From Earliella scabrosa (Eukaryota > Basidiomycota > Agaricomycetes > Polyporales > Polyporaceae): a DNA stretch of 64,000 nucleotides. The notes under the pieces are model-generated. The model saw only the letters and a list, made by a program, of their open reading frames with translations, was not told where the DNA came from and did not search any database. Where the stretch lies: positions 62,001 through 126,000 of the forward strand of contig JABYQQ010000034.1 of the NCBI GenBank assembly GCA_022605405.1. The letters are read 5' to 3'. Numbering within the stretch: the first letter of the stretch is position 1; each line of letters opens with the position of its first letter. Shown here piece after piece: positions 1 through 36,910 of this stretch. The translations under genes were made by a program, and so were the position numbers.

Positions 1-1
1 T

Positions 2-2165
2 CGCGAGCGCTCTCGAACGCCATCGCAAGCCGCGAGGTCCGCTGAACCCCGGTCTCAGCCGCATCGTCAAGTCAAGCGCAAGGCCTCTCGGTCCCCTCTG
101 CAGGAAGACGACGTCGAGCGCTCAGTGACGGCCGGCCCGGAGGCCATATCCAAACTCAACGAAGCGGAGTCCATTCCCGAAACGTTGTCCTTCGTAAGTT
201 CAGTCCAACATCTCGCATTACGATCATCGCTTAGCAACATGCAGCCGTTGGGATGGGGATGTGAAGGGTGCAGGAAGATTGGGGCAGCGTGCGAGGTGGA
301 TACCTTTGCTGGGACAGTCTGTAAGCAGTGCCGAAAGATCAAGGTGAAATGCAGCTTTATGCAAGTTGCCTCCAAGCCCCTACGATGCTATCTTGTATGG
401 CAGTTCTGGAGGGCATCCCATCGGCTCGACGAGAACCCGGACCCCATCTTCGTACCTCCAGAATACGCGACGAACTCAGCGTCGCCACCAGACTGGTGGC
501 TAGCGCGGACGCCCTCGGGTCGGGACCGCAAGCGCCCACGGACCTCTGAGCCAGTTGCGAAACCCGCGACAGCATCGTCACGGGGTCGTTCCCACTTGAG
601 GAACGCACCTTCTGCTCCTAGTGAATCCGAGCGTCCCTCGCCACTGCCAACAACCGCGGTTTCGCGTCAAGACCCCGTTTCTCCGCATCTCCCTCCTCGT
701 CCATCTCCGGCCGACTCATCTGCGGACTCTGGCAATCCGATCCCTGCTGCCGATCCCGCATGGACTCATCCGCCCGCTCGCATCATACCTCCATCCTCTG
801 CCCGCAGGCTTCGCCCTCGAGTCCCTCCTATCGTCCCTCGGGGCGCCGAGGAGGCTCCGGCCGATGCTTCTGGGCCTGATTCTCGTCAGGCTTCCCCTGC
901 GACTCTCTCGCGAAGGACATCCGCATCTGGAGTAATGCGTGCCCCTCGTTTGAACGGTGCGTGTGTCTCCAAAATTCCCAATTATCGTCGCTAATTCCGC
1001 TCCTTGCATAGGTTCGTGGCGGGATCTCCCGACTCTGGCGCGGGTTCCCACCCCTCTCCCAGAACCCGAGGCCGAGTCTTCCGACTCACCGCCCACTCGG
1101 TACCTCCCCGACTCCTGGCGGCCTCAGGCTAGCATCTCCAACCCCGAACGACTTGCTATTCCCGGCAGCACAAGCGCGCGCCCCCGTACTCCCCCGGCCA
1201 TCGTATTCCAGCCCGGTGTCAACACCATCCAGTTAGCCGAGGAAGCACAACGGCGGATTGCCTCCATCCGAGACCTTCAGGTTTCTCTTGCGCGCGCGGC
1301 AGCCGAAGCCGAAGGCCTCGCGCAGAGCAGTCGTTTGCGACAGCTGGCGGCACAGACAGACGTCCGGGATCCGGATGCCGTCCCGGAGGCGCTTGAACTA
1401 CTTTCGACCCAGCAGAAGCAACTGGAAGCCGACAATCGGCGGGGCGCGGAGGTGCTCGGACGAGTCTCCCAATCTCTGGCGTCTGTTTGCGCGCTATTCG
1501 AACTTCTGCCTCCCGTCCCAATGAACGACCGCGCGTTGTTGGAGATGCTGGAGCTGGTCCATCAGCTGCGCGAGCTGTACGGCACCATTCAAACAGCATT
1601 CCAATCAAATCAGGAGAGTCTCCGGCCGGTGCAGGCGGAGCTTCTGAGGGTTCGCGAAGAGCAGCAGTTGATCATCGACCGACTGGATCAAGTCCCGAAC
1701 GACGTCTCTACGGCGGTTCATCCCCTTCTTCGACGCCTATATGACCGCGTCAACCAGCCTCGCCCAACAGCCCTCCCGAATATCAGCGCAGATGGACAGG
1801 TTTCTTTGCACACGCGCAACCCTGTTCCCCCCGAGACCCCAGTTCACGAGTTGACCTCACTTGAGCCCGCGGTGGATCTATGGACGGAGGTTGACGCGCT
1901 TAGAGCACGTATTGAATTGCTGGAGGGCGCGCCAAGTTCGCGAACAGACAATGGCGCGGCGGGTGAAGACGGAGCGCCTGGAGATGCCAGCGTCTGCGCC
2001 GTGCGCAGCGAGGACGACATGCGGAGCATGGTCGTTGAACTTCGTAGACGTGTGACGAGGCTTGAGGGCCTGCACGGCAGTCGCGTTGCTGTTCGTGAGT
2101 ATCTGGAAGGGCTTGGGCTGGACAGTGACCACTTGCGCCGTCTGGCATCCATGACGCTTACTTAG
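2..2165 (+). CDS. Zn2Cys6-like and coiled-coil protein, 5'-truncated by window edge
   Basis: The reading frame is open from the first bases, so the true start probably lies outside the window; an internal ATG at 239 is the alternative. Exons are <2-956 and 1012-2165, joined by a 55-nt intron (gtgcgt...gcatag, branch-like gctaat). Residues just after the internal ATG contain six cysteines spaced C-x2-C-x6-C-x9-C-x2-C-x6-C, which is the spacing of a fungal Zn2Cys6 cluster. A Pro/Ser-rich stretch of roughly 180 residues follows, then a long Ala/Glu/Leu/Gln-rich region that looks coiled-coil. Zn2Cys6 modules usually bind DNA, but no fungal transcription-factor middle domain is visible, so a regulatory role is only inferred. 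It lies 240 bp upstream of the TET/JBP gene in the same orientation and may be cargo of the KDZ element. I do not recognise a named family. Confidence 0.6.
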
Positions 2166-2408
2166 TTTGCTCCATACGCGTTCCCCGGTTGGTCGTGGGC
2201 TCTGGAACTGGGTCAGGGAAGAGTCATGTAGTACTAGTACCATAAACCTGTATTTCGTTTCCGAATGTAATGCTCGGCAGTCAAAATCATGCGACCGCGT
2301 GTGTCATCAAGGGACGACGCCGAACTCCGCCTGTGCTCTCACATTGCTCTGCTGGCATCTCCGACCTTGTTATCCCAGCTTGGACTGCGAAACATTCCTC
2401 TTACGACT

Positions 2409-3754
2409 ATGGCGGAGCCCATGTACGACACTACCATCGCCGAACGCCGTGCAGCAACTGCGGCGTTCATCGTCTCAGTCTTCAAAGTGTACAAGGAAGA
2501 GATTGCAGCTGGCCACCCCGCGGGCACCACGAACCCCCAGCTACCTAGTGCACCAGCTCATGTCAGTTCAATCCTTCGTGATGAATGCTATGGTGTCGCA
2601 AGAGTGCTCGCTGAGGCAGCAAGCAACATCCGTGAGGACTTGCCTGAGTTTGCATCTTCGGGAATCCTGACTCCATCTTGCACACAGATACGCTGACCTG
2701 GGACGCCGCCCACTATGCCGCATCCCTTCAGAGATCTACGGTCGGAAACGTAGACTATGAAAATGCTTTGCTTCAACAGTTCCCGCCCCTCGGACCTATT
2801 CAAGCTGTCATAGACGACACCAAACCGTTACCGGTGATTCCCGACCCATGTGTTTTCTGCGACCGCGTTGGCCGACAGGTCTCCTGGAGTCTTCCCTCGA
2901 TCATGCCTGAACGGCACCAAGTAAGACAATGGCTTCCGCAGTTTACTTTGGGGCTGACGCTTTGCTTAGACTATCGCTCTCGATGCGGTCCGCGCACTTC
3001 AAGCACGTCTCACTTACGATCATGTGGAGCAAGCCCAGCCCACGAGCCGCAAATGGCGCACGGCCGATTGCTACTTCAACCAGGGTGGCACTCTCAAGCC
3101 AGGTCAAGTCTTCCTTGGACCGGCGTGGTTTGAACAAGGTCATCTGGTAGGTCGCGTATATCGTTGAGTCCGAAGCTCGGCCGTTGATGGAGAGTATAGC
3201 CGCCGAGGTATCCGCCGATCGTGCTCTCAGCTACCAAGACCCCGGAAGCTGCAACCTGGATGGTGGACATGCAGGAAACCTGTCAGATCCTTGACGGTAT
3301 TTTGGCTGTGACTCATCCGGCTCTATATGCCGCTGGACGGCGACTGATGCAGCGGCTCTATCAAGACGACGCCCGGGCGCGCGCCATTGTGGAACAGTGG
3401 CCATCGGTTTATCACGCCGTGCACATTATCGTTAACCGCGAAACCATTTACCACCGCGATGTCAACGGTCTTCCCGGCTGGTATGATATGCTTCTGTCTG
3501 TTGGGGACTACGGAGAGGAGGCGGTCTTTTCCATGAGATCTCTCGGTGTCTGCGTCCCCTACGACAGTGGAAGTGTTGTCATGGTCTGCTCCCGGATCGT
3601 GCTGCATGCCGTCCCTCCGGTCCCAAACACTAGAGTCTGCTTTGCGTGGCTTATGAGAGACATAGTGCTTGCTTACCATAGTGTATATGGCGCCGAATGG
3701 TCTTACATAGGCTCCGAGCTCTTCGACGGTCCTGAGGACGCCTCCTTCCGATAG
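2409..3754 (+). CDS. TET/JBP-family 2-oxoglutarate/Fe(II) dioxygenase
   Basis: Four exons (2409-2631, 2688-2920, 2970-3155, 3200-3754) join in frame to give about 398 aa. The C-terminal half has the double-stranded beta-helix signature of TET/JBP oxygenases: NRETIYHRDVNG (H299, D301 as the HxD iron ligands), the distal histidine in IVLHAV (H350) and the 2-oxoglutarate-binding arginine in NTRVCFAWLMRD (R359). These residues are seen directly. Family members oxidise 5-methylcytosine or thymine methyl groups in DNA; this substrate is inferred. In Agaricomycetes many such genes travel with KDZ transposons, and here one lies convergent to an intact KDZ transposase. An upstream in-frame ATG at 2289 would add 40 residues; I chose MAEPMYD because the preceding stretch looks non-conserved. 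No frameshift or missing catalytic residue was seen. Confidence 0.85.
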
Positions 3755-4095
3755 ATAGATCCCTACGTATGGTCTATGTAGTCATTTCGCACACCCCGGA
3801 GATCCGTTACGCTGTATCTAGTACATTTTACACCATGCGCAGCCTGGTCCGGACTCGTAAGAGTACCTCCGGCTCCCTGGAGATTGTCCAATGTTGACAA
3901 CGAATCACCGAAGCGCCTGGATGGGCTGTCCGACATGTTTGAGCTCCCTACGACTGCCGTTAGATGGCGGAGCAGCAGATGACGCCCGAATTAGCCGCGA
4001 AAAGACTTCTAGGGAAGATATGTATATCTCCGGAGCTATCCCTACCCTGTTGGTAGCTGCGAGAATGAGATTATTGCATGGCCACTGTACTGACT

Positions 4096-4127
4096 CGGAG
4101 CGCCGGCGCTCCTGTCTGGCGCTCCGA
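4096..4127. repeat. GC-rich palindrome and hairpin
   Basis: A perfect 16-bp palindrome GGAGCGCCGGCGCTCC is followed 6 bp later by another GGCGCTCCG, so CGGAGCGCC can pair with either copy. It lies within the putative mobile element between the TET/JBP gene and the next plus-strand gene. It could be an intron or UTR hairpin or a transposase-binding site; nothing in the sequence decides this. Confidence 0.6.
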
Positions 4128-4387
4128 ACCCTGAGCTGTCGGCTTACTGATACACCTGCTGTTGCCTCTGTAGGCTATACACACCGTCGGAAAAGCAACG
4201 GACGCGTAGTTAGATTATGTGCGAGCTGCTCCGAGAGTGGTTAGAATATATGGAGCCCGCTGCAATCGAGACTTGCTCGATGTGGCCGGAGGAACCACCG
4301 GAGACTCAATCGTCTTTCACAGTTGTCTCGACATATCGCAGGCGGGCCTCGGAGAGGTCTCCTGGCATATGAAGAGCAGCGGAGGCC

Positions 4388-5327
4388 AACATTCAGCCTT
4401 CAAGTTGGTGGTTGAGGCTGGCTATCCGCACTCGGTCGGTCGATTGCCATCCTATCCGACAGCCAAAGGACAGGCCACGAGGGCTCCAGCGCGCGTTGCA
4501 CGACCGTCATGCCCCACACCAGAACGCCAGCAACTGTCGCCATGTCGCTCATTGGATCCCCCGAGCAAGTCATTCTTGTGCAACATCCTGCGGAACCACT
4601 GCCGCAGGTTATGTGGTCGGCCCGGCTTGAGATTCTGCTGAGTGTCTGGCGTATTGCGCAGGCACTCAGGGCCCTCCCAGAGAGCCCTACGGATTTGACG
4701 TGGGGGCGATGGGGACACGGTATCGGGCGGGAGCTGGTACGCCGATACTCTCTTTCTTTTGCGCTCTGACCAACTCATGGTCCCATGAACTGCTCAATCC
4801 GCGCAGTGGGTTGCTATCTCGGCTACGGGTCTCGAAAGCTGCACGGCCGTCGCGTTGGGAGAGCCTCAAACCCGCCGATGCGGCGCTCTCGCTCTCCTGC
4901 TTCGCCATGTGGAGTGGCAAGCCAACCGGAGCCTCAAGTTCGACGCCAGGACGTTCGACGTTGCGCCGTTCCTCGACAAGATCGGCAACCTGGCGGACAG
5001 TCCGGACCTTGCGTCCATGGACCTCGTATGGAGTCACGCAAAGTGGTGGACATGGTCTAACTACGGACCAGAAGAGGGCATTCCGGTGTGGTGGATTGAC
5101 CCTAGCGAGTTTGTGGTGCGTCCGCCGTCCATCGAGTGCACATAGTTTCCCTGAGAGGGCGTTCCCAGCCTCATCCCATGCCATTGCATGCGTCGGCTGT
5201 CGAAGATTTGCGGTATCGTAACACCGCCATTCAATCCGAGCTCACACGGGTCATAGAGGGGCACAAGGTTGTAGTAGAACAGTTGAAGACGCGTATTGAA
5301 CAGCTTGAGCGCGAGTTGTTTGCATAA
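4388..5327 (+). CDS. Unrecognised element-borne protein with C-terminal coiled coil
   Basis: The supported 3' part has three exons: about 4402-4736, 4807-5115 and 5169-5327, all joining in phase 0 through 70-nt and 53-nt introns. The peptide runs through a Trp-rich central region (LLSVWRIAQALRALPE, LTWGRWGHGIGREL, KWWTWSNYGPEEG) and ends in a charged heptad-like helix with EQLKTRIEQLERELFA. The 5' part is unclear. Likely upstream exons lie at about 3.9-4.4 kb, including segments reading MAEQQMTPELAAKRLL and LLREWLEYMEPAAIE, but I could not join them with confidence. I do not recognise the family. It sits tail-to-tail with the KDZ transposase (142 bp between stops) and downstream of TET/JBP in the same direction, so it is probably part of the same mobile element. 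Confidence 0.5.
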
Positions 5328-5468
5328 GCATCGTTGGACGCCCCGGTGGTGGTAGAACTGTCTCTGACAATGTGGCTGCGTCATGTAACGTCTCATATCA
5401 GAATACATTCGCGCGTGTCCAAATACTTCTGCTCTGGATACAAGGGTAGCAAAGATGGTCTACGAAAG

Positions 5469-8400
5469 TCAAACGGGTTGAGTCTTCGTCAATAAAAGCG
5501 ACAGGAGACGGGAGCGGAATTGAGCAATCTTGGCCTCGGGGATAGAAACGCATCGGTACCCCCGGAGTAAGGCCGCAATGCATGCAAGAACCCAAACGCC
5601 GCAATCGTGACCGTTCGTTTGCAGTCGATTTTTCTGAGACCCGGGAAACATTAGCCTAAGTATGATGATAATCTCAACAGGTTTCCGCACTCACCACCAG
5701 CCGATGCGCGGACCATTCACCGCCGAGGTCTGCAACGGGTTTATTCTGTGCCGCGGCGATGCGGAGAAGTCGGTGCACTAGCGAAAATACGGTCTAGAGC
5801 GAAATAAGCAACGTCAGCAGAGCGCAGAGGTAACGCCCAGCCGCGACCTACCTGGACATCCTTCTCCCATGTGGACGCGTTAGCGAAGCTGTCGAACAGA
5901 GCAATCTGCCGCTCTTTGACATACACCACCGCCAACTCCCAGTGATGCGCCGCGGGTTGATGGATAGGGATAATCCACACGTCACTCTCCCAGTATCGAC
6001 TTCGATGGTTGACACGCCAGACTCCCTGATCGGAAGACTGGCCATCGCGCTCCTGAGACATAGCGAAGCTGGAAATTATGGCCGGATGCCCTCCGTCAAC
6101 GTTCTCCGTGCCGAAATGCAGGGCAAGAAGTTGAGCGCATCCGTTGAGACAGTCGTCGTTGAGCCATCCGCAAGGGTCTCGGAGCCGAGCTACGTCCTCC
6201 GGGGAGAATGTGACGCCTTTACCGGTTGCGTTGGGGTGCGGCAGGACGCGGCTCGCGTTTGGATCCACCACGGTGGGCCGGGGAAGTCTGGGAATTGCTA
6301 CGGAGCAATCCATGGTCGCTCCATACTATGAATACATATCAGCATCGTCATAGCTGGTCAGTACGTCTATGCACTCACCGGATCTGCATCCTCGGCGAGC
6401 TGCAGGACTCGAACTATCATTGCGGCGTCGCTCTGAACCTGAGCGTGAGTGTCGGAAGGAGTCTCGTCAGAGGAGGAGCCCGCAGGGCACGGGCCGAGAA
6501 ACCTGAACGGGTTCCGTGGGGAGCTCTGCAGCGAAGTGCGCGACTGGTAAGAAGGCGCTACGTCGGGGTTTGCGCTTAAGCCGACGACGTCTACTGTCCG
6601 CGGGGATGCGCGTTCCGCAATCGGAGGATCCGCGTCGGTCTGCGGTCCAACCTCGTCCTCGTCCTCGCCCTCGTCCTCGTCCTCGTCCTGGTCAGCGTCG
6701 TCGCCGACCAGCTCCGCAATGGTATCTTGAGCCAGTACAGTGTCCGGGTCGCCGTAGTAATCTTCTAGCTCCGGGTGGTCTTCATTGTCGTGACTAAAGG
6801 TAAGGTGCACCCATGTCAGCGGCTGCGTCTGGGAAGCTCCCGAAAGGCGCTCAGCGATGCGCACGGCCTCCTCGGTGTGTGATGCGAAGCGTAACTCCGA
6901 TGCTAAAGGGGTCCGCCAGCGTGCCTGGAGCAAGAGCAGCTCCGCCTTCCGCTGCTGTAGAAGGAATGAAATTGGCGAATCTAGGTAAATTCAGCGGTTA
7001 GGCGGCGCGAATGGTCCGAGCGACATGAGGGCATGACTCACAGGATGAAGTGCGAAGTGCAAGCTCTACTGCAGCGAGCTCGTTACCATACCAGCGACAC
7101 AAATTATCGGCTTCGTCGCCAAGTCGTCTCCGCTCCTCGAGACATCGGTCTTTCAAAAGCATGGCGCGAATCCCACGGCGCACGTCTGGGTCATCCAGCC
7201 ATCGAGGTGTCGGAGAGGTTAGAGGGGTCACCCACACGTCTGTGAGAAGGCTGGGATCGTTCCGGAGGGCTCCGAGTTCGACCGGGAGATGCTTCGGCAA
7301 GGGAATCTTCCAGCTCTTCTTGTGTTCGCGCTTCAACGTGTCGCAATATGTATTGAACTTCCGGATTGCCGTGAGCAGGGCCGGTGTTCGCTTCGCTATG
7401 GCCTTCCGGGTGTGCTGATGTAGTTTGGTGCCTACAATTGAAGTTGGAATGATTAGACCTAGCCACTCGCGGAAATCTGTAATTACCCAATGGTTGATCT
7501 CGTCCGCCGGCAGCTCGGTCAAGCTTATCCCATTCGAAGAAGCTTCCAATAGCCCGCTTGCGGATGTTGATCTTCAAATCGCGGGCCATGATGAGCGTCT
7601 GGACAAAGGGCAGTGAAAGTCCTAGGATCTCGGGGAATTCTTCCGGAACGTTCAAAGATGCGTAGAGCGCTTCGACCTGCTCGATAGTGCGCGCATGCGA
7701 TTGTTGCAGAGTCCTGAGAAAATGGTGCGCCTGTGGATTGGTATTTTCAACCCTGATATGAGTCTGCATCGCATTGACGAATTTCTTGATGTCGTCTAGC
7801 TCCGCTTGTAGATTTAGGACGCTGTCGAGCTCTTTCCTCAACCGCGCAGGCGCATCTAACAGACCGCGATTAGTGGGTAACGTAGACAAGGACAGATCGT
7901 GCGGCCTTACGGTTCCTCACGGAGAGTTGGGAGGCGCGCTGTAATTGCCACTGCTGTCGCAATTCCGCCATTGGAATTTGAAGCTCGTTCAGTTCTTGAT
8001 CTGCCTTGGCTGTGCGAGCCTCCACCCCGTTCTTCAGGCGAGATCGGAGCCAGTTACCTAAGTCTTCTCGGGCAATGGCATTGACGGAGTCGGCGTGGCG
8101 ATCTAGATACCAGATTCGACGTGAACGCTGTATGCAATCCTGTTCAGCGAGCGTACAACATCACTACGGATAGTACTCACACCGGATGTTCTGGTTATGC
8201 CTATCAGCTTGCGGAACTTGGACCAAACCCTTTCGGTGCCCTCCCCTTCCGTGAGACCAAGCCCTTCCCTAAGCCGGGGGTTGTAGACAAGCTGACAAGA
8301 CCACTGGTGACCGTACGCGTGCATCACCGAAGTGGCGAATACGAGCCGCTCCACTATGGTTTGAGGGAGAATGTCATACTGCAAATAGATCATTGATCTC

Positions 8401-10766
8401 AGCAAATGGACTCAAAGTTAATCGGTGTACGTACCAAGTGCAGACTGCGGTCGAGGACGCAGCCGATGTCATAGAACACGGCGACGGTCGCTTCGCGAGG
8501 GAGAAGTGACATGAGATGTTCCACCAGAGCAACACCATACTTCTGCTGCTCGCCCGGAGTATCGACATTGGCTAGGAAGAGCACGACATCGTGGCGGCAC
8601 ACCAGAGCCATAAGGCCGGTGTCGTCGAACTTGACGCCATGGGTCTTCGCCTTCTGCTCGTCCGCCGCTTCAAACGACTTCTCACATTCGTCCAAGGCGT
8701 CCGCCGGGACTTGGCTAGTATGCGGACGCGGCGCATTCTTCCGGGCCTGCTCAATACGAGTTCCGACGGCGTCCACGGAGTCCTTCGAGATGAAGTACTT
8801 GGGTTCATGGAACCAGGGACTATCCCCGGCCGCGAGGTTGTGACGCTGACTGAACGTTGCGTCGATTGCAACATGAACATCGCCGCCGTCCCTGTATCGC
8901 GCGAAGATGTCAGAAGAGCAGCGGTATATGTATCAAACACTCACTTGTCGAAGTCACGTCCGAACCTTGTGCCTCCGAAACACGCTGGACACCTTTTCTG
9001 CAAGATCCGGTCGCAACTGCCTGCTGTGAGTCCAGCTGACTTTTGACCTGGTATCTGGTGCTCTCGAGTTGCCTCAGCATGCCCCGCAGGCCGTTGAATG
9101 TTAGGCCAGGAGCCACTAGAGTGCTCTCCCGGACCTCCGGCAGCACGTCCAACGGAACCCTCTCGCGGACCTCCCCCGGGAGGTCCAACGGAGCCCTCTC
9201 CCGGACCTACCCCACGAGGTCCAACGGGACCCTCCCCCGGACCTTCTTCATGCGGTCCCACGGCACGCTCTCTCGGACCTCCTGCTGGGTGCACATCGGG
9301 ACCCTCCCGCGGAGCTCCCTGGAGACCGCTGCCCGGACGTTCTACGAGAGGTTCGCGGAAAGGTCCCGGGGTACCTCCCCATGGAGCTTCTGCCGGATGT
9401 CCCTGCGCACCCTCTTGCAGAGGTTCTGCGGAGGGCTCCAAGGGACCCTCGCGAATACCTACATCCGGAAGACGACCGTGAGTACCTACCGTCATAGGTC
9501 CTGTCGGTTGTTCTGTTGTGGCTTCCCTGGGAGTTGCGCCTCCCGGTGCGCCCTGGTGCACCCCTGGAATATGTCGGTTAGCAGGACAAATCTATGTGGG
9601 CTATAGTATGGACCAAGGCAAGTTTTACTTACCTCTGTTCTGCGACAACTCCTCGGATTCCGAACCTTTCGCGACCGTAAACGACTTCACGGTGTGCAAA
9701 CAATCGTCGATAGCGGTCTCCACGAGGGAATCGACTCGGTTTCGGAGGCAATCGTACCATTGTATCGCGTACCCTATTCCGCGGCGGAACGGGTCTTGGA
9801 CAGGTTCTCCCTGGTGCGATCGAGTCAGGAGCATCATGAGGACTTTAAGAAAGACTATTATGGCTCAAACTTACCTTCTCGTTCAGGACCGGGAAGCCGC
9901 GTCTCTGATACAACGTCTTCAGGGCTCCTGCCAGCGCAGTCACCGCATCCGCCGACCGTTCGAATAGTGCAAAATAAAAATCGAGGAGGTCTATCGAAAC
10001 GGCTACACGGGGCTGGGAAGGAGCTGTGGGGAACAGACCGTTTTTGACGAGCGTATGAGGTAGAGGCGAGCAGGAGCATGACTGCACATCAAGTGTGGCT
10101 AGATCTACGTCGGAGAGAACGTCAATGGCAGTTGGAAGTCTCATGGAAAACAAGCCTACGGTCAAAATAGAGACAGGTGACGCTGGTCACCTCTAGCATG
10201 CACGATTGTTCGATGCAATGACACGGTTCGAATATTCCAGAGGCCCCCCCGGTCCGCTTTTGAGCTGCTTGTAGATAGGTGAGATAGTTCGGCATCAGAG
10301 TTGGGATCAGCGCGAGCCATGAGGAATACAGGCGACGCGCTGCTTCGTCCGGTTGGAGTCGTCGGGATCCCTTTGAAGCAGCTGTTTCGGCCGTGAACTC
10401 GATATGGTTTTCCTGCATCATCGCATCATCCGCAGAAGGCGTGGTGCCGGGGATGTCGGAGTCGAGGATAGGTTCGCTCGTCATTTCCGAGTCCGTGAGG
10501 TCATCCGCCGCGCCGTGAAGGGAGCTCGGATCCGAGTCTGATGGACCCGGGGTTGGTGCATCGGGAGGATGAAGAAGATCTGCAAGTTCTTGAGCAAGGC
10601 GGTCTCTCAGAACGAGTGCGTTGGTTCGGGTGACAACTTCTGCATGCTTCCGAGGGGCGCGGCGTCCTTGAGGAGTGGTAAAATGCTGGCCGACAGGTTG
10701 CTCATCGCGACGTTGAGGTCGCCGCGGAGGCGTTTGTGGAGGCGGTAGCACATACCCAGAGTCCAT
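5469..10766 (-). CDS. KDZ-superfamily transposase fused to Ulp1-type peptidase
   Basis: Thirteen exons (10766-10160, 10104-9875, 9810-9633, 9563-8945, 8891-8435, 8378-8181, 8127-7911, 7855-7487, 7431-7042, 6980-6379, 6325-5852, 5793-5695, 5633-5469) join in phase to 1534 aa with no stop. N-terminal cysteine clusters (CHC near 183, CSCSPLP near 212) precede GLFPTAPSQPR. The transposase core shows VHVAIDATF (D555), VFYDIGC (D686) and GLTEGEGTERVW (about 738-749), the probable acidic catalytic residues. The C-terminal part has the hallmark IGSFFEWDKLD and EADNLCRWYG, then an acidic linker. The Ulp1 domain follows: HHWELAVVY (H1417), LFDSF (D1434), and LQTNGHDCGVW (Q1485, C1491), a complete Cys-protease triad. 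The transposase would mobilise the element; the peptidase may act on SUMO-like conjugates or the polyprotein. Both roles are inferred from the families. Confidence 0.9.
9124..9339 (-). repeat. 36-bp minisatellite inside transposase exon 4
   Basis: Six tandem 36-bp units run from 9124 to 9339, with a degenerate seventh to about 9375. On the plus strand each begins like CTCTCCCGGACCT. Read on the minus strand they encode 12-residue Gly/Pro/Glu-rich repeats such as GPGEGSVGPPGG. The repeat lies between the N-terminal cysteine region and the CPACFGG motif, so it is a low-complexity linker in the protein. Confidence 0.85.
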
Positions 10767-11075
10767 ACTGGACAGTAAGACGATGGTGGAGGCTTCAAGG
10801 CTGCAGAGGCCGTCCACGGACGTCGTTGAAAGAAGCGCGCGGGCTCCGCGTGTTCTCAAGTGACATGTAGGATGAGTGAAACGTTCGGTAATATGATTGC
10901 CAGATAATACAAGGGGGAGAATCTCGTCGGAGGGGAGGTTCTCGCAGACGTCTCGGAGAGGGTCCTATCGAATTTGAGGTCGCCAGTGACGTCCCGGAGA
11001 GCGTCCAAGCGGTATATTACCAAATAGGGGACGCTATTAATAGGAAGACAGCCTGGGAACAGGTACATGGGGGGT

Positions 11076-11120
11076 CCTCTAAGGTACGTTTCCCATCTAC
11101 AACGAAACCCACCTTAGAGG
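11076..11120. repeat. Perfect 10-bp inverted repeat, candidate transposon end
   Basis: CCTCTAAGGT (11076-11085) and its exact reverse complement ACCTTAGAGG (11111-11120) flank a 25-bp spacer that also contains TTTC and GAAA in inverted order. The site is 310 bp upstream of the transposase start and 328 bp from the histone deacetylase stop, where the right boundary of the element is expected. No matching copy was found at the left of the window. It may be a subterminal hairpin or a terminator-like structure rather than the terminal repeat. Confidence 0.4.
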
Positions 11121-11447
11121 TTGGTCGCAGTCCTGGTCAGGCCCTGCCCTAGGTGTGTCTTCCACTTTACTGGGTGAAACGTCGAGGCGCGATGGAGGTC
11201 ATGTTCCGGTCGTGGTTTGTATAGTAGAGCAGTTCTGTAGTACCGGTGTACTTGTGCTTGTGGTTCCTCTTACGGTCTGGTTTGTTCGTCTTCCACACTC
11301 GCTTCCCCTTATTGGACTCGTGCGATGGTCTGTCAGATTGTCAGGATGGCCCTTCGTAGACCCAAAATGTAGCATGCGATACAGATGTGGTGGTGTTACA
11401 TACAGATACATCCAAGATACCCCTTCCTAGACGCCGTCCGTGCCGCC

Positions 11448-13542
11448 CTACTCATCGTCTTCCTCGCCGTCCGGCTCGAACTCGGCCTCGTCGCCCTCCT
11501 CGCTGTACCGCTCTCTCGCCCGACTCACAGGCACAGGCACAGCCATCCGGAACTGAGCAGCCTCGAACGTCCCCATCCCCGTCCCGACGCCCGCCCGCTG
11601 CCGCTCCAATATTTGCCTCTTGATCGGGTCCCACTGCGCTCCGCTCTGGAAGAACCGGCGTTTCCTCCCGTTCCCACCCCCGTGCGCGTGCATGTGCCCG
11701 CACCCGTCCTCGAGCTCGTCCTCGAGGAGCTCGCGCTCGAACTCAGGTGGGAGCCGAGGGACGTCAAAGAACCTGGACGTCACGATGCTCATCCTCTTCT
11801 TGCCGCTTCGGATCCGGCGCGAGGACCTGCCGCGGCGGCGCGCAGAGGACTCGCCGTCGGACGCGTCTTCCTCCTCGGGCTCGGGCTCCGAGTCTGTCTG
11901 GTCCGAGTCCTTTTGGACGTCGTATACGTACCGCGCGTGCTCTGGAGGGGAAGATGTCGGAGGGGTCGAGGAAGAGAAGAGAGAGAGGAGGGGACGTACG
12001 TGCGAGTCGTTCGTCGAGGTCGTCGATAGGCGCGTGCGCGTGCACGCCGCCGAGCGCGAGGTGCTCGTCGAGGCTCTCGCGTGGGACGTCTTGCATCTGC
12101 ACAGAGGGCGCGGGCGCGAGCTCCGAGAGCTGCTGCAGGGTCTGTTTCCTGCACACGAATTGTCCATCAGCCGACCACCCTCGCGACGCAAACCCGCACG
12201 GGCGCACAAGCGCACCTGATGTCATCGAGCGAGCCGTCCTTGATGTTGAAGTCCTCCAAGTTGCTCTCAAGCACCTCCAGGCGGTACCGCGGCCCAAACC
12301 ACTCAAAATACTCGTTCCAGGGAAGGTTCGGGTCGATGTCGTGCTCGATGCCGAGCGCACACGCTGTCTCGTACGTCCACGCGCGCGCGACGTTCTTGAC
12401 GGTGTACCCGCCGCCGCCGAGGAGCATGAGCGGGATGTTCTTCGAGCGCACGTACTGCACGCACCGCGCGTGGCCGTGCATCGTCAGGTTCAGTCCGCCG
12501 AGCTTGTCCCCTGACAGCGAGTCCGCGCCGCACTGGAGCACGATGGCGGACGGGCGGAAGACGTCGAGGATCTTGTCGAACACCTTGTTGGATGGGATGG
12601 AGCTTGAGCGAGCAGGCGGAGACGGGGTGCGACGCGCACGAAGGAACACGCACCGGCTCGAAAACGCTCCTGTACGCCTCATCCGTGATCCCATCCTTGA
12701 GGGGTATGTTGACGGCGTATCCCGTCCCCTTTCCCCTCCCCCGGTCCTCGCTCTGGCCTGTGCCGGGGAAGAACTCGCCGTACTTGTGGAGGGAGTAGGT
12801 CATGACGCGGTCGGTCGTCCAAAACGCCTCCTCGACGCCGTCGCCGTGGTGGCAGTCGATATCGATGTAGAGCACACGGGGGACGGCGCGGAGGAGCTCG
12901 AGGATGCCGAGGACGATGTCGTTAATGTAGCAGAAGCCCGAGGCTTCGCGCTTCTTTGCGTGGTGGAGGCCACCGGCCCAGTTGATGGCGATGTCGGCCT
13001 CGCCTTCCATGAGTCGCTTTGCCGCGGCTGGCGCGTGGCAGGGAGGATCAGACGGTGGTGGGAGGGAGAGGGCGCAATGTGAGAGATGGCGCACCTATGG
13101 ATCCGCCGGCAGATATCGACGAGAACTCGAACACGCCCTCGAAAGGCGGGTTGTCCTCCCCGACGAGGAAGCGTGTGCCGTGGAAGGTCAGTCTTCGTGC
13201 GTTCTCGTGTGTGACCTTGGAGAGAAAGTCTACGTATTCGTCGGTGTGGAAGCGGGTCATGACTTCTGCAGTCGCGCGTTTGGGACGCTGCGACGGGTCA
13301 CCGGATGATGCGCGAGGAGATAATTGGAGCGACTTACGAGGACGTGCATCCTTGGCAGCATGTCGTATGCTGAGACGAGTTCGTGGGTGATGCGCATGCG
13401 CTGGGGCTTCATGGCGTGGGTGACACCATACGAGTACGAGCCCACATCGGCTACAGAGGAGGGGTTTGCTCGTTCTGGAATGGTGGTTAAAGCGAGAATA
13501 AAGCTCACGATCATAGTAGTACGCAACCCTCCGCTTGGACAT
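11448..13542 (-). CDS. Class I histone deacetylase (RPD3/HOS2 type)
   Basis: Seven exons (13542-13509, 13450-13338, 13287-13095, 13027-12654, 12583-12216, 12148-12000, 11941-11448) join to 574 aa. The zinc-dependent deacetylase domain spans residues 1 to about 380. Visible motifs are RVAYYYD at the start, [18 protein letters not shown] (catalytic H135-H136), [16 protein letters not shown] (ligands D171 and H173), [10 protein letters not shown] and [15 protein letters not shown]. It would remove acetyl groups from histone lysines in a nuclear co-repressor complex. The tail after about residue 430 is acidic ([15 protein letters not shown]), then basic ([16 protein letters not shown]), then acidic again at the end, and is longer than in yeast Rpd3. 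The choice between RPD3 and HOS2 orthology needs a tree. Its 3' end faces the KDZ element. Confidence 0.93.
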
Positions 13543-28955: not shown

Positions 28956-31409
28956 ATGACCATAGACCTCACCCAGCTAGCCAAAGAGAGGCTCTCTGGT
29001 GTTCCTCTCACCGGCGCCCGACTATACGTTGCTCTTGCGGGTATCGCGCTCGTATGGGCAATCAAGTCGATCATCACGACATCTCTTAGGAGGCGGAAGA
29101 TGCCTCCAGGACCGCCTGGCGTCCCACTCCTCGGCAACGTCTTCGACGTCCCAAGCAGCATGCCTTGGTTCAAGTTCACGGAATGGAAACAGCAATACGG
29201 TACGGTCCGGACTCCATAGCGTCACCATTCTTCGACTGACAGAATCTGCCAGGGCCTATTTACTCTCTCAACATGGCGGGTCAGCCCGTCGTGGTAGTTA
29301 ACAGCCACAAAGCCACGGCCGATCTCTTTGGTGCGCTTCTCCCCTGCTCCATTCTTCGCGAAGGACATCCATTGACGCCCGCATCGGTCCCGTCTGGCTA
29401 TTTGCCTCTCGTTCCTTCCCTCAGATCGCCGCTCCAACATCTACAGTGACCGCCCGCGGCTGGTCATGGCGAGCGAGATTCTTACTGGCGGGATCTTCAT
29501 GGTCTTCTCTGGCTACACCGAAGTGTGGGTGATGACATCTCAGCGATCCAGCGTACTCCTCACTGACGCGTGCTTCTTCTTCTTGCGTGGCTTGGCAGTT
29601 GGCGCAAGATGCGCCGAGCGGGACACGAGGGCTTCAACCTGCGCGCGTCGGAGCAGTACCAGCCGATGCAGGCCCGCGAAGCTGGGCTGACCGTGCTCGA
29701 CCTCCTCGCCCAGCCTGACACGTGGGAGGATCGTCTCAAGCGGTTCGTCTTGTTCCCTCCACTCCCACTTCCGTAGTTCTCCCGCTGACAGAGATCTGCG
29801 ATTGCGTTCATCTCGATAGGACGACGACATCGAGCATCCTGACTGCAGTGTATGGCTGGCCGCGCATCAGCGGCAAGGACAAGCCTGTCGTAGACAGGAT
29901 CCACGCACACACCGCGCGCATTGCCAGTGCCGTCGTCCCTGGCCGATACCTTGTCGACATCCTCCCGATCATGAAGCACCTCCCTACGTCGATCGCAAAG
30001 TGGAAGCGCGAGGGTCTCCAGTGGCACGAGGCAGAGACGAAGATGTTCGAAGAGTTCAACCAAGGCGTTAGCGATCGCATGGTGCGTGTCGCCCATCTTG
30101 GATCTTGGTATCTTGGCTTTCGGTGTATATTGACAGCCCGTTGCGCAGGCAAAGGGCGACTCGCCAACCTGCTTCGTCGCGTCACTCGTAGAGACTGAGC
30201 AGCGCCACGGGCTCACTAAGAAAGAGGCGGCTTGGCTAGCGGGAATCATGTTGTACGTTCGCCGCTCCACACTTCTTGCCTTCGACACAACCGTGCTCAC
30301 CCGAGGCCTTCTAGCTCTGCGGGCGCAGAAACGGTACGTCCTTGCTCACCTTCTCACCCCTCCTCTCCCGATCGGCGATTGGCACTTGGCACGACTCCCT
30401 CGGAGCCGTGTAGAGATCGCAATCTCGAGCCCAGAGTGTGTCGCTGTGTGTCCACGCTGTGTTCTGACCTGGCTCTTTCTCGCGTTTGTCCAGACTTCGG
30501 CGTCCATGATGAACTTCGTGCTCGCCATGCTTCTTTTCCCCGAAGCGATGCGCAAGGCACAGCGCGAGCTCGACGCGGTCGTCGGCCGCGACCGCGCGCC
30601 CACGTTCGAAGACCGGAAGAACCTGCCCTACATCCGCGCCATGGTCAAGGAGGTCCTCCGCTGGCGCCCCGTCGGCCCGCTCGCAGTCCCGCGACGCGCG
30701 ACCGAGGTGAGCAGCCGCCGTGCGCGCGCTCCCATCCACAGTAGTGCTGGAATGCTCATCCTCTGTTCTAGGACGACTGGTACGAGGGCTACTTCATCCC
30801 GAAGGGCACGACCGTCATCCCCAACGTGTGGTACGTCCCTCTCGCCTTCACAGCGTGTGTTCCTGTTTTGGTCCTTATCATCGCGACGCGTTGCAGGGGC
30901 ATGAACCACGACCCGGAGATCTTCCCCGACTTTGACAACTTCCGCCCCGAGCGCTTCCTCGACGAGTCGGGCAAGATCGACATCGCCCCGCCCGACACGC
31001 ACGGCATGGGCCACGTCACGTTCGGCTTTGGCAGGCGGTACGTCGTCTCGCCGCCGCACTCTGCTTGTCCCACGGGCCGCTGACACTGAGGGGGTCATGG
31101 CAGGATCTGCGTCGGCCTGAACTTCGCGAACCAGGCGCTGTTCATCAACTTTGCCACTCTCCTGTGGGCGATGAACATCTCCAAGGCCGTCGACCCCGCG
31201 ACCGGGCGCGAGATCACGCCAGACCCGAACGCGCTCGTCGACGCCGGCGTCGTTGTGTACGTCCCCCCCTGCTCCGTCGCCTCTTTCTCTGTGCTGACGA
31301 TGTGATGTGTGCATGTACTAGTGGACCGGCGCCGTTCCCCTGCAAGATGACGCCGCGGTTCCCCGAAGTCAAGGCCGTGCTCGAGCGCGAGCTCGCGCAT
31401 GCTGCGTGA
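28956..31409 (+). CDS. Cytochrome P450 monooxygenase (P450 B)
   Basis: The start MTIDLTQLAKERL leads to one membrane anchor (LYVALAGIALVWAI), then MPPGPPGVPLLGN. Further blocks are PIYSLNMAGQPVVVV, YSDRPRLVMASEILTGG, WRKMRRAGHEGF (C-helix), the I-helix SAGAETT split by an intron, RPVGPLAVPRRATE after the K-helix, FRPERFLDES, and the haem loop FGFGRR|ICVGLNFANQ with an intron between R and I. At least nine introns interrupt it. All joins I checked (for example TT|C before SAGAET) keep the frame, and the gene looks intact at about 500 aa. It is clearly paralogous to P450 C 3.5 kb downstream, sharing the YSDRP, SLNMAG and RIHxHTxRIAS blocks. The likely role is oxidation of the sesquiterpene scaffold; substrate and position are unknown. 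Confidence 0.9.
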
Positions 31410-34864: not shown

Positions 34865-36910
34865 ATGAGCTCCAACACCCCTCTTGTCGTTCCTTCCGTG
34901 CCCCGCGCGTCTACCATTCTTCCATTATCTTCGTCTTCGGTGATCGCTGCGCTAGCCGGCCTCTTCGTCGTCTATATCGCCCACTTCCTCGTCCGCGGCG
35001 CCCTCACCCGCCGCAAACTTCCTCCAGGTCCCCCGGGGCTCCCGATTCTTGGCAATCTTTGGGACGTCAAGGGAAAGGCATGGATTCAGTACACAGAATG
35101 GGCCCGAACATATGGCCCCATATTCTCCCTCAACATGGCTGGCAAGCCCATCATCGTCCTCAGCTCGCATAAAGTGGCCGGCGACCTCCTCGACCGCCGC
35201 TCCACCATCTACAGCGATCGTCCAAAGACCATTGTCGCCGGCGAGTTCCTCACCGGCGGCGTCTTTCTCGTCTTCACCCTCTACGGTGAGCTCTGGAGAC
35301 GCATGCGTCGTGCCTCCCACGAGCAATTCAGCTTCACCGCCTGCAAGAAGTACCAGCCGGTCCAGACGCGAGAAGCGTACGCCCTCGTTTCAGACCTTCT
35401 CGCCGACCGCCATGACTGGAGGGAGCACCTGATGCGGTACGTGCCCTCATACCCTTGCTGCGCAACCACATTTGCTCACCGCGTCCCCCTTCTTCTTCTC
35501 GCTTCTCGACATCGTTATTGGTCCACAGCTCCGCAGCATCCTCGATCCTGTCTGCACTGTACGGCTGGGACCGCCTCGACCCCTCCAACCCCCTCGTTCA
35601 CCGCATCCACGAGCACACCGGGCGAATCGCCTCCTCGGTCCTTCCCGGGCGGTTCATGGTCGAATACCTCCCCTTCCTCAAGCACGTCCCCTCCTGGACA
35701 GGCCTCGCGCCCTGGAAGACCTGGGCCGAGACCTGGCACAAGCGCGACACGGACATGTTCATCGAGTTCCTCGAAGACACGACCAAGAAGGCGCACAAGG
35801 GCGACGCGAACGCCGCGCAGAGCTTCGCAGCCGGCCTGGAGGAGGACAAGGCGCGCCACGGCCTCTCGACAAAGCAGATGGCGTGGCTCGCGGGGAACAT
35901 GTTCGGCGCCGGCGCGGAGACAGTGCGTCTTCCCCCTCTCTGTCCTCGCACCTCCGTTGCTGATTCGACCTCCTCTCTCTGTCATGACAGACCGCAGGCC
36001 AGCTCATCATCTTCGTGCTCGCGATGGTCCTCCACCCTGAGGTACAGGCGCGCGCACAGGCGGAGATCGACGCCGTCGTCGGCCGCGACCGCGCGCCGAC
36101 GTTCGCGGACCGCGACAGCCTGCCGTACATCCGCGCGTGCGTGCGCGAGACGCTGCGCTGGCGCACGGTCGGGCCCCTCGGCACGCCGCGCGCGACGAGC
36201 CAGGACGACTGGTACGAGGGCTACTACATCCCCAAGGGCACCGTCGTGCTCGAGAACGTCTGGTGCGTGCACTCTGAACGCTCTGCGATGGCTGGTGGGG
36301 ATGCTGACAGTCATGGACGCCTTTTCTATTACGTGCATTTTAGGGCGATGAACATGTACGTGTTGCACCTTGGGACACGGTCGTGAAGGGTGGTGCGCTG
36401 ACATGCTTCGGTATGCGACATCAGGGATCCCAATGTCTTCCCCGACGGCGACGTCTTCCGGCCAGACCGATTCCTCGACGAGAGCGGGCAGAACGAGATC
36501 GCGCCGCCCGACACGCACAACATGGGCCACGTCACGTTCGGCTTCGGCAGGCGGTCAGTCCCCTCTCGCGTCCCCTGAGTGGCAAGTGCACTGGCAGCTG
36601 ACACGCGCCCGCAGGATCTGCGCGGGGTACAACTTCGCGAACCAGTCGCTCTTCATCGACATCGCGTGCCTGCTCTGGGCGTTCAACTTCCGCAAGGCCA
36701 AGGACGAGTTCGGGCGCGAGATCACGCCCGACGCGGACGACATGAAGGACGGCGGGCTCGTCGCGTGCGTGCTCCTCTATTCCTCCTTCTCCGACGGTTG
36801 CTGATTTGAGTGTGCGTAGGGCCCCGCCGGAGTTCAAGTGCGAGATCGTCCCGCGCCATCCGGAGGTCGCGAGCATCATCGAGCGCGAACGCGAGCGCGT
36901 GCACGCGTGA
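34865..36910 (+). CDS. Cytochrome P450 monooxygenase (P450 C)
   Basis: It starts MSSNTPLVVPSV, with a membrane helix VIAALAGLFVVYIAHFLV and then LPPGPPGLPILGN. Visible blocks are IFSLNMAGKPIIVL, YSDRPKTIVAGEFLTGG, WRRMRRASHEQF, the I-helix FGAGAETTAGQ, ETLRWR of the K-helix, FRPDRFLDES, and the haem loop FGFGRR|ICAGYNFANQ with the Cys ligand and an intron at the same place as in P450 B. The last exon ends RHPEVASIIERERERVHA. The exon-intron pattern and sequence make it a tandem-type paralogue of P450 B separated by the AKR gene. All key residues are present. It is likely a tailoring oxidase of the terpenoid cluster; the exact CYP family would need a formal comparison. Confidence 0.9.

Follow-up and report, generated by a model that had tools for sequence, protein, structure and literature searches.

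The stretch of DNA analysed here raises the question of whether a gene for a TET/JBP dioxygenase that lies beside a KDZ transposase gene travels with it as part of one mobile element, and of what such an enzyme would do for the element that carries it. The stretch, hereafter the window, comprises 64,000 nucleotides of the polypore Earliella scabrosa (Polyporales; contig JABYQQ010000034.1, C34:62001-126000), from an assembly with 48 contigs and 51.7 Mb in total. We find that the window opens with the right half of a KDZ DNA transposon of 21,523 bp, which runs from C34:51633, 10,367 bp to the left of window base 1, to window position 11155. Our best explanation, to which we give a probability of roughly 0.65, is a large cut-and-paste KDZ transposon in which the TET/JBP enzyme and the accessory proteins are integral to the life cycle. 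An initial annotation had drawn an 11-kb element over positions 2..11120 with two extra genes; the actual extent is 21.5 kb, and the gene count also fell short, since the left part contains a further large gene on the minus strand.

The right boundary was set where homology stops, at the same point in all six copies compared (the window copy and five other loci):

11045..11155, no strand: right terminus and subterminal inverted repeat (CCTCTAAGGT .. ACCTTAGAGG), ending in ..CCCTAGGTG; homology stop in 6/6 copies

Leftward, the homology with the copies on C14, C23 and C6 extends far past the window edge. A search for the left end as a near-copy of the right terminal 20 bp, allowing up to five mismatches, gave none, and the end was recovered by comparison with the homologous copies on C14 and C23, in a diverged form (CACCCCAGGCAGGG). 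The left terminus at C34:51633, CACCCCAGGCAGGGG, forms an imperfect inverted repeat with the right terminus, CACCTAGGGCAGGGCC, so that the element reads CACC..GGTG at its extremes. Homology is continuous from end to end in the C14 copy and in the C23 copy, which is 21,379 bp long. A scan of the genome with the terminal pattern returned 16 matches against seven for the reversed control pattern; single matches are therefore no proof of an end, and the ends used here were confirmed by their flanks.

Both ends were read in 12 copies, and in 11 of these the two 8-bp flanks are identical: C14 GCGAGAGC, C23 GGACACTG, C6 AGCTCGCA, C26 GTCCGAGT, a short C6 copy GCATCGCG, a short C9 copy CTTGCACC, C16 GGCTGGCC, C23b GCCATGTA, C21 CGCTGGCC, C24 TTCCGGCA and C1 CAAGCCCC. 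Three further right ends (C11, C17 and C23c) were read without a left end. The distance between ends reaches 56-58 kb in C6 and C14 and 135 kb in C1, with interiors partly read; nested insertions presumably account for the length of the latter. Four genes, those for TET, gene1, gene3 and the KDZ transposase, lie between the ends in nine of the 12 copies, while no TET, gene1 or gene3 match occurs in the short C6 copy (5.8 kb), the short C9 copy (5.1 kb) or C23b (17.0 kb, with a KDZ fragment). The short derivatives, in which neither a transposase nor a TET was detected, must have been moved in trans. Because the shared ends lie outside all these genes and the 8-bp flanks are identical, the genes are inside the mobile unit in the copies with such flanks. 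The alignment of copies proposed in the initial annotation has thus yielded ends, inverted termini, 8-bp duplications and co-occurring accessory genes, and its view of one composite KDZ element holds; a copy that ends between the transposase and the plus-strand genes, which would speak for host genes, was not found among the copies read. The KDZ domain, a CxC cysteine cluster and, in the family, the 8-bp duplication place the element in the KDZ superfamily.

In the window, three plus-strand genes converge on a minus-strand transposase, as initially annotated (dN/dS is the ratio of non-synonymous to synonymous substitution rates):

1..2165, plus strand: right part of gene1, whose start lies about 671 bp beyond the left window edge; coiled-coil protein bearing a Zn2Cys6-like cluster; deposited protein P0001 and gene model
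260..352, plus strand: Zn2Cys6-like cysteine cluster of gene1; spacing and exon dN/dS
2289..3754, plus strand: TET/JBP dioxygenase gene, four exons, model of 435 residues; Pfam, CcTet structures and dN/dS
3452..3487, plus strand: H-x-D metal motif with the equivalents of CcTET Gly331 and Asp337 (HRDVNGLPGWYD); structure alignment and comparison of TET loci
4509..5327, plus strand: gene3, three exons, 231 residues, new family with a C-terminal coiled coil; gene model and copy alignment
5592..10964, minus strand: KDZ transposase gene with a C-terminal Ulp1/C48 protease, exon borders approximate; Pfam, motifs and dN/dS
5592..6325, minus strand: Ulp1/C48 protease domain with motifs HHWELAV, LFDSF and QTNGHDCGVW; Pfam, 23.2 bits (cut-off 20.7)
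8106..8932, minus strand: KDZ catalytic domain; Pfam KDZ
9875..10400, minus strand: CxC1 cysteine cluster region of the transposase, approximate; Pfam CxC1

The TET gene scores 60.4 bits with Pfam Tet_JBP (cut-off 34.9) over 3200-3751. Its only solved relatives found are two sequences of the Coprinopsis cinerea enzyme CcTET (PDB 7vpn and 8jkk; E 5.8e-20 and 5.9e-20), aligned over residues 100-292 of a 320-residue query. CcTET is thus the closest solved relative, and its catalytic residues, as well as Gly331 and Asp337, have conserved equivalents in the window enzyme. The H-x-D motif starts at 3452, and the distal H and the R are also present, which bears out the complete set of metal and co-substrate residues initially claimed; together with the Asp337 equivalent, these are the features of an AG-type TET/JBP enzyme. 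Across the genome we found 39 TET loci and read 30, all of which keep H, D, H and R; 23 of them have D at the Asp337 position, and both the G and the D occur in the window copy. From these residues the window TET is likely to be enzymatically active. In CcTET, Gly331 and Asp337 have a role in N6-methyladenine (6mA) and 5-methylcytosine (5mC) catalysis, according to the main text of Kojima 2025 (PMC12730594). As a separate observation, six of the 30 loci read (L034-L037, L039 and L040) form a group clearly apart from the rest, lack the Asp337 equivalent and have no gene1, gene3 or entered KDZ match (see below) within 11 kb.

The transposase matches Pfam KDZ with 101.2 bits (8402-8932) and 66.3 bits (8106-8411; cut-off 26.6), and we take its conserved acidic residues, the catalytic D-D-E picked by eye, to be the D of AIDATF, the D of YDIGC and the E of GEGTERVW. 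Before the catalytic domain, a hand-spliced stretch matches CxC1 (31.5 bits, cut-off 26.9). The Ulp1/C48 motifs, which presumably supply the catalytic H and D (HHWELAV..LFDSF) and Q and C (QTNGHDCGVW), are kept in the C23 and C14 copies.

For gene1, whose deposited protein P0001 has 866 residues, the description as a Zn2Cys6 and coiled-coil protein stood in part. Six cysteines at 260-352 are spaced C-x2-C-x6-C-x9-C-x2-C-x6-C, a pattern that fits the canonical Zn2Cys6 spacing and recurs identically in the deposited paralogues P0003, P0004 and P0005, while Pfam Zn_clus reaches at best 18.1 bits against a cut-off of 21 and covers less than half of the profile. Zn2Cys6 is therefore a fitting description and membership is not proven. 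The P0001 model splices out the sixth cysteine, and our own gene model treats the cluster as an intron; we count it as exon, since no other stretch of gene1 is as conserved (dN/dS 0.16 and 0.06). No relatives of gene1 outside E. scabrosa appeared among the 7992 scored candidates sharing most words. The gene3 protein, with 30 invariant columns across 11 copies, matches no Pfam family above cut-off, and a profile search with it returned nine proteins, of which five come from Earliella and one, GSI_11216, from Ganoderma sinense; the others are three ENA sequences on contigs of less than 800 bases. In a single-sequence structure model the C-terminal helix is the sole confident part, and a six-sequence model (mean predicted local distance difference test score, pLDDT, 68.7) found no PDB match with E <0.001.

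Most of the left 9.5 kb of the element, outside the window, is occupied by the large minus-strand gene, for which the model of a single gene with 19 exons is uncertain and may join more than one gene. It contains coding minisatellites, with a 12-bp unit repeated 57 times (L009:4252-4933) and a 42-bp unit repeated 7.6 times (L009:6825-7142). One stretch looked HMG-like by eye, an identity for which searches of Pfam and of PDB sequences gave no support.

Selection was estimated by the Nei-Gojobori method between the window copy and those on C23 and C14, the latter comparison without the N-terminal part of KDZ. The most constrained gene is TET, with dN/dS of 0.095 (C23) and 0.070 (C14), followed by KDZ (0.151 and 0.144), gene3 (0.200 and 0.162), gene1 (0.281 and 0.352) and the left gene (0.355 and 0.375), whose exons vary from several at 0.03-0.10 to others of up to 0.82. 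With overall dS per gene of 0.43-1.06, the compared copies are old relatives, and the ratios show purifying selection on every gene of the element.

How constant is this gene set across the genome? There are 129 KDZ matches, of which 80 were entered for distance counts (mostly second exons, and a few weak loci, were omitted). In the lineage of the window element (lineage A), gene1, gene3 and KDZ accompany TET at all 11 TET loci. Gene1 lies 2.0-2.9 kb upstream of TET on the same strand in 11/11; downstream of TET come gene3, on the strand of TET, at 1.4-3.2 kb in 10/11 and at 21 kb in C6, and KDZ, on the opposite strand, at 5.0-6.9 kb in 9/11. In C6 the KDZ is 32 kb away. In C1, where the nearest match is another KDZ, the match at 5220918, about 25 kb away, was assigned by hand. 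Within 12 kb of a TET match, a neighbourhood covering 1.8% of the genome, are 17 of the 19 gene1 loci and 21 of the 24 gene3 loci, so that this linkage exceeds chance; 28 of the 39 TET matches have at least one of the 80 entered KDZ rows within the same distance.

The same genes recur in a second lineage, B (C4, C9, C11, C19 and two C24 copies), in the order gene1, TET, KDZ, gene3 and on one strand. Its right end reads ..CAATGGACTG, with 99.9% identity between C19 and C11 there over 1842 bp; the 10 kb to the left of the C19 copy are another repeat and not the left end of B. The transposases of B and A share 25% identity over 109 aligned residues. In a KDZ tree of sequences from this genome (the lineage A sequence of C26 left out), A groups with seven KDZ loci lacking a TET match within 12 kb, B falls elsewhere (98/96), and the transposases of B and B2/B3 are sisters (99/99). 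In both TET trees, the second of which omits the six rows of the different group, A comes together with five of the six B rows (89/92 and 88/90), apart from B2. This incongruence suggests that the gene1-TET-gene3 set was exchanged between transposase lineages, although long branches were flagged in both KDZ and TET trees, and approximately unbiased (AU) tests of the exchange give p values at about 0.05 or above (TET, p 0.0496 and 0.213 with five or six B rows; KDZ, p 0.0585 and 0.063).

Some further observations concern these repeats. Two lineage B copies with equal match scores lie 64.5 kb apart on one contig (C24:19800-31795 and C24:84284-96279), and near-identical B2 copies occur on three contigs, C26, C35 and C37 (L015-L017); segmental duplication, recent movement and assembly haplotypes are candidate readings of both cases. 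A large repeat, L092 (C19:272001-282000), has matches of 94-99% in C2, C4, C6, C8 and C32 and a CpG ratio of 1.39; two of these matches sit within the C6 element copy.

Inverted repeats exceed chance near the ends of the element. In the first 110 bp of 27 ends, their score averages 7.70 against 4.90 in letter shuffles, and nine ends score at least 8 against 0.9% of shuffles; all nine come from the sub-lineage of the window and are not independent, and letter shuffles ignore dinucleotides. The left ends of C21 and C26 score 4 and 5, the level of shuffles. In several left ends the sequences of the arms differ yet still pair, around a constant loop of 24 nt: C34 has ..TTAGGT/ACCTGA.., C16 CTTAGAC/GTCTAAG, C24 TGAGAC/GTCTCA and C1 CTGAGAC/GTCTCAG. 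Such subterminal inverted repeats fit a putative site for a dimeric protein.

The likeliest function of the TET module, judging from its sequence and context, would be anti-silencing, a role that the main text of PMC12730594 proposes for TET+ transposons generally. The host fungus would methylate copies of the element; the TET of the element would oxidise 5mC, and perhaps also 6mA, on or near the DNA of the element; and this oxidation would keep the element expressed or its ends usable. At the level of a guess, gene1, with its zinc cluster and coiled coil, and gene3, with its coiled coil, might be partners that bring TET or the transposase to the subterminal palindromes. The earlier proposal that the system might edit methylation on its own DNA or on its targets is, on this evidence, a hypothesis.

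Several observations weigh against our reading. The CpG ratio is 1.07 within the element, against 1.09 for host sequence in the window, and because CpG is not depleted, the element bears no footprint of heavy past methylation. In other mushrooms, the oxidised marks also fall on retrotransposons, which the main text of PMC12730594 reads as untargeted action. The three copies without TET have perfect duplications, that is, they moved; the module is thus not needed in cis, and TET would act at least partly in trans or be dispensable for any one copy. Moreover, the window copy itself lacks a duplication (CGAGCGTT vs TGTCTTCC). At its left end, a WSC-domain reading frame (C34:50417-51664, 88.8 bits) runs into the element at C34:51633, and no continuation of this frame was seen at the right flank; with the duplication missing as well, a rearrangement of this copy after insertion is likely. 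No left end bearing the right-flank octamer of the window copy (up to three mismatches) and no empty site for it were found, and its left flank matches itself and, elsewhere, distant stretches only.

That missing duplication is what could favour regarding the plus-strand genes as host genes beside a smaller KDZ transposon. This is hardly tenable, as the four genes lie between the ends of eight other copies with perfect 8-bp flanks and homology spans the whole element in C14 and C23, so that the idea is already contradicted. It is also very unlikely that TET, gene1 and gene3 are mere passengers that play no part in transposition: the three in 12 copies that lack them and are still duplicated at their flanks would agree with it, but copies of one genome keep the three genes at dN/dS of 0.07-0.35 with dS of about 0.46-1.06, and the same gene set occurs in two distant transposase lineages.

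More serious, though still unlikely, is a TET that serves genome-wide host control, for instance through oxidised marks at many repeats, and merely travels with the element. The oxidised marks on many kinds of transposons in Coprinopsis and Laccaria, described in the main text of PMC12730594, fit such a role; many diverged copies that each have a conserved TET fit selection at the level of the element better, and the same text argues likewise. Quite unlikely, in turn, is an enzyme that leaves a durable new mark, or one that works on 6mA, instead of erasing 5mC. The presence in the window copy of both the Gly331 and the Asp337 equivalents, linked to 6mA and 5mC catalysis in PMC12730594 (main text), would allow for it, whereas Pfam scans of most exons of the element revealed no glycosyltransferase or other modifying enzyme. 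Returning to a transposon that depends on its own TET, one can tentatively imagine, as a possibility short of probable, that gene1-TET-gene3 is a portable anti-silencing cassette exchanged between distant KDZ lineages, in which gene1 would be a sequence-specific zinc-cluster protein steering TET to the subterminal palindromes of the element itself, the arms of which vary from one sub-lineage to another and yet pair (AGGT/ACCT vs AGAC/GTCT), each lineage thereby protecting itself.

Around the window copy, a histone deacetylase gene lies just right of the element on the minus strand (window 11448-13094; Pfam Hist_deacetyl, 161.8 bits over 12306-13094), and the open frame next to the element ends about 290 bp from its right end. 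Farther away, a tandem gene duplication with copies about 5.5 kb apart (window 30557-31275 and 36054-36783) shows by eye a heme-binding stretch like that of cytochrome P450.

TET+ KDZ elements as such are already known. Iyer et al. in 2014 reportedly linked TET genes to KDZ transposases and to extra proteins, including one with a divergent HMG domain. As described in the main text of PMC12730594, the TET+ Kyakuja elements of Agaricomycetes, reported from Polyporales too, likewise combine a KDZ-type transposase and an AG-type TET/JBP in one element; the Laccaria families have 7-bp duplications and CA..TG ends without inverted repeats, whereas the window element shares the CA..TG ends and has 8-bp duplications and imperfect inverted termini. 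That main text, as far as consulted, holds no description of gene1, gene3 or the large left gene, and the words HMG, zinc, accessory and Earliella do not occur in it. In the literature surveyed we found no description of gene1 or gene3 as genes of an element, though Iyer et al. 2014 or the supplements of PMC12730594 could contain one. The closest mobile relatives seen are KDZ1 to KDZ3 of Cryptococcus neoformans (PMC12810828), for which the available part of that source describes a KDZ and CxC1 transposase, inverted repeats, duplications of 8 bp (4-8 bp for KDZ2 and KDZ3) and demonstrated movement. They differ in their size of about 9-11 kb and in inverted repeats of 139-241 bp, and no TET is mentioned there. 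Plant Vandal elements, cited in the main text of PMC12730594, have anti-silencing proteins with reported sequence specificity.

What looks new is the gene set of this element, its 8-bp duplications with inverted termini, and the recurrence of gene1, TET and gene3, differently ordered, in a second and distant KDZ lineage. The reported neighbourhood of TET and KDZ genes now becomes a defined mobile unit, with precise ends, duplications, a conserved set of genes and strong selection on TET, and the genome of E. scabrosa also holds short derivatives of the element that lack TET. It can now be tested whether the TET of a transposon protects the copies of that transposon, and whether it owes sequence specificity to a partner protein.

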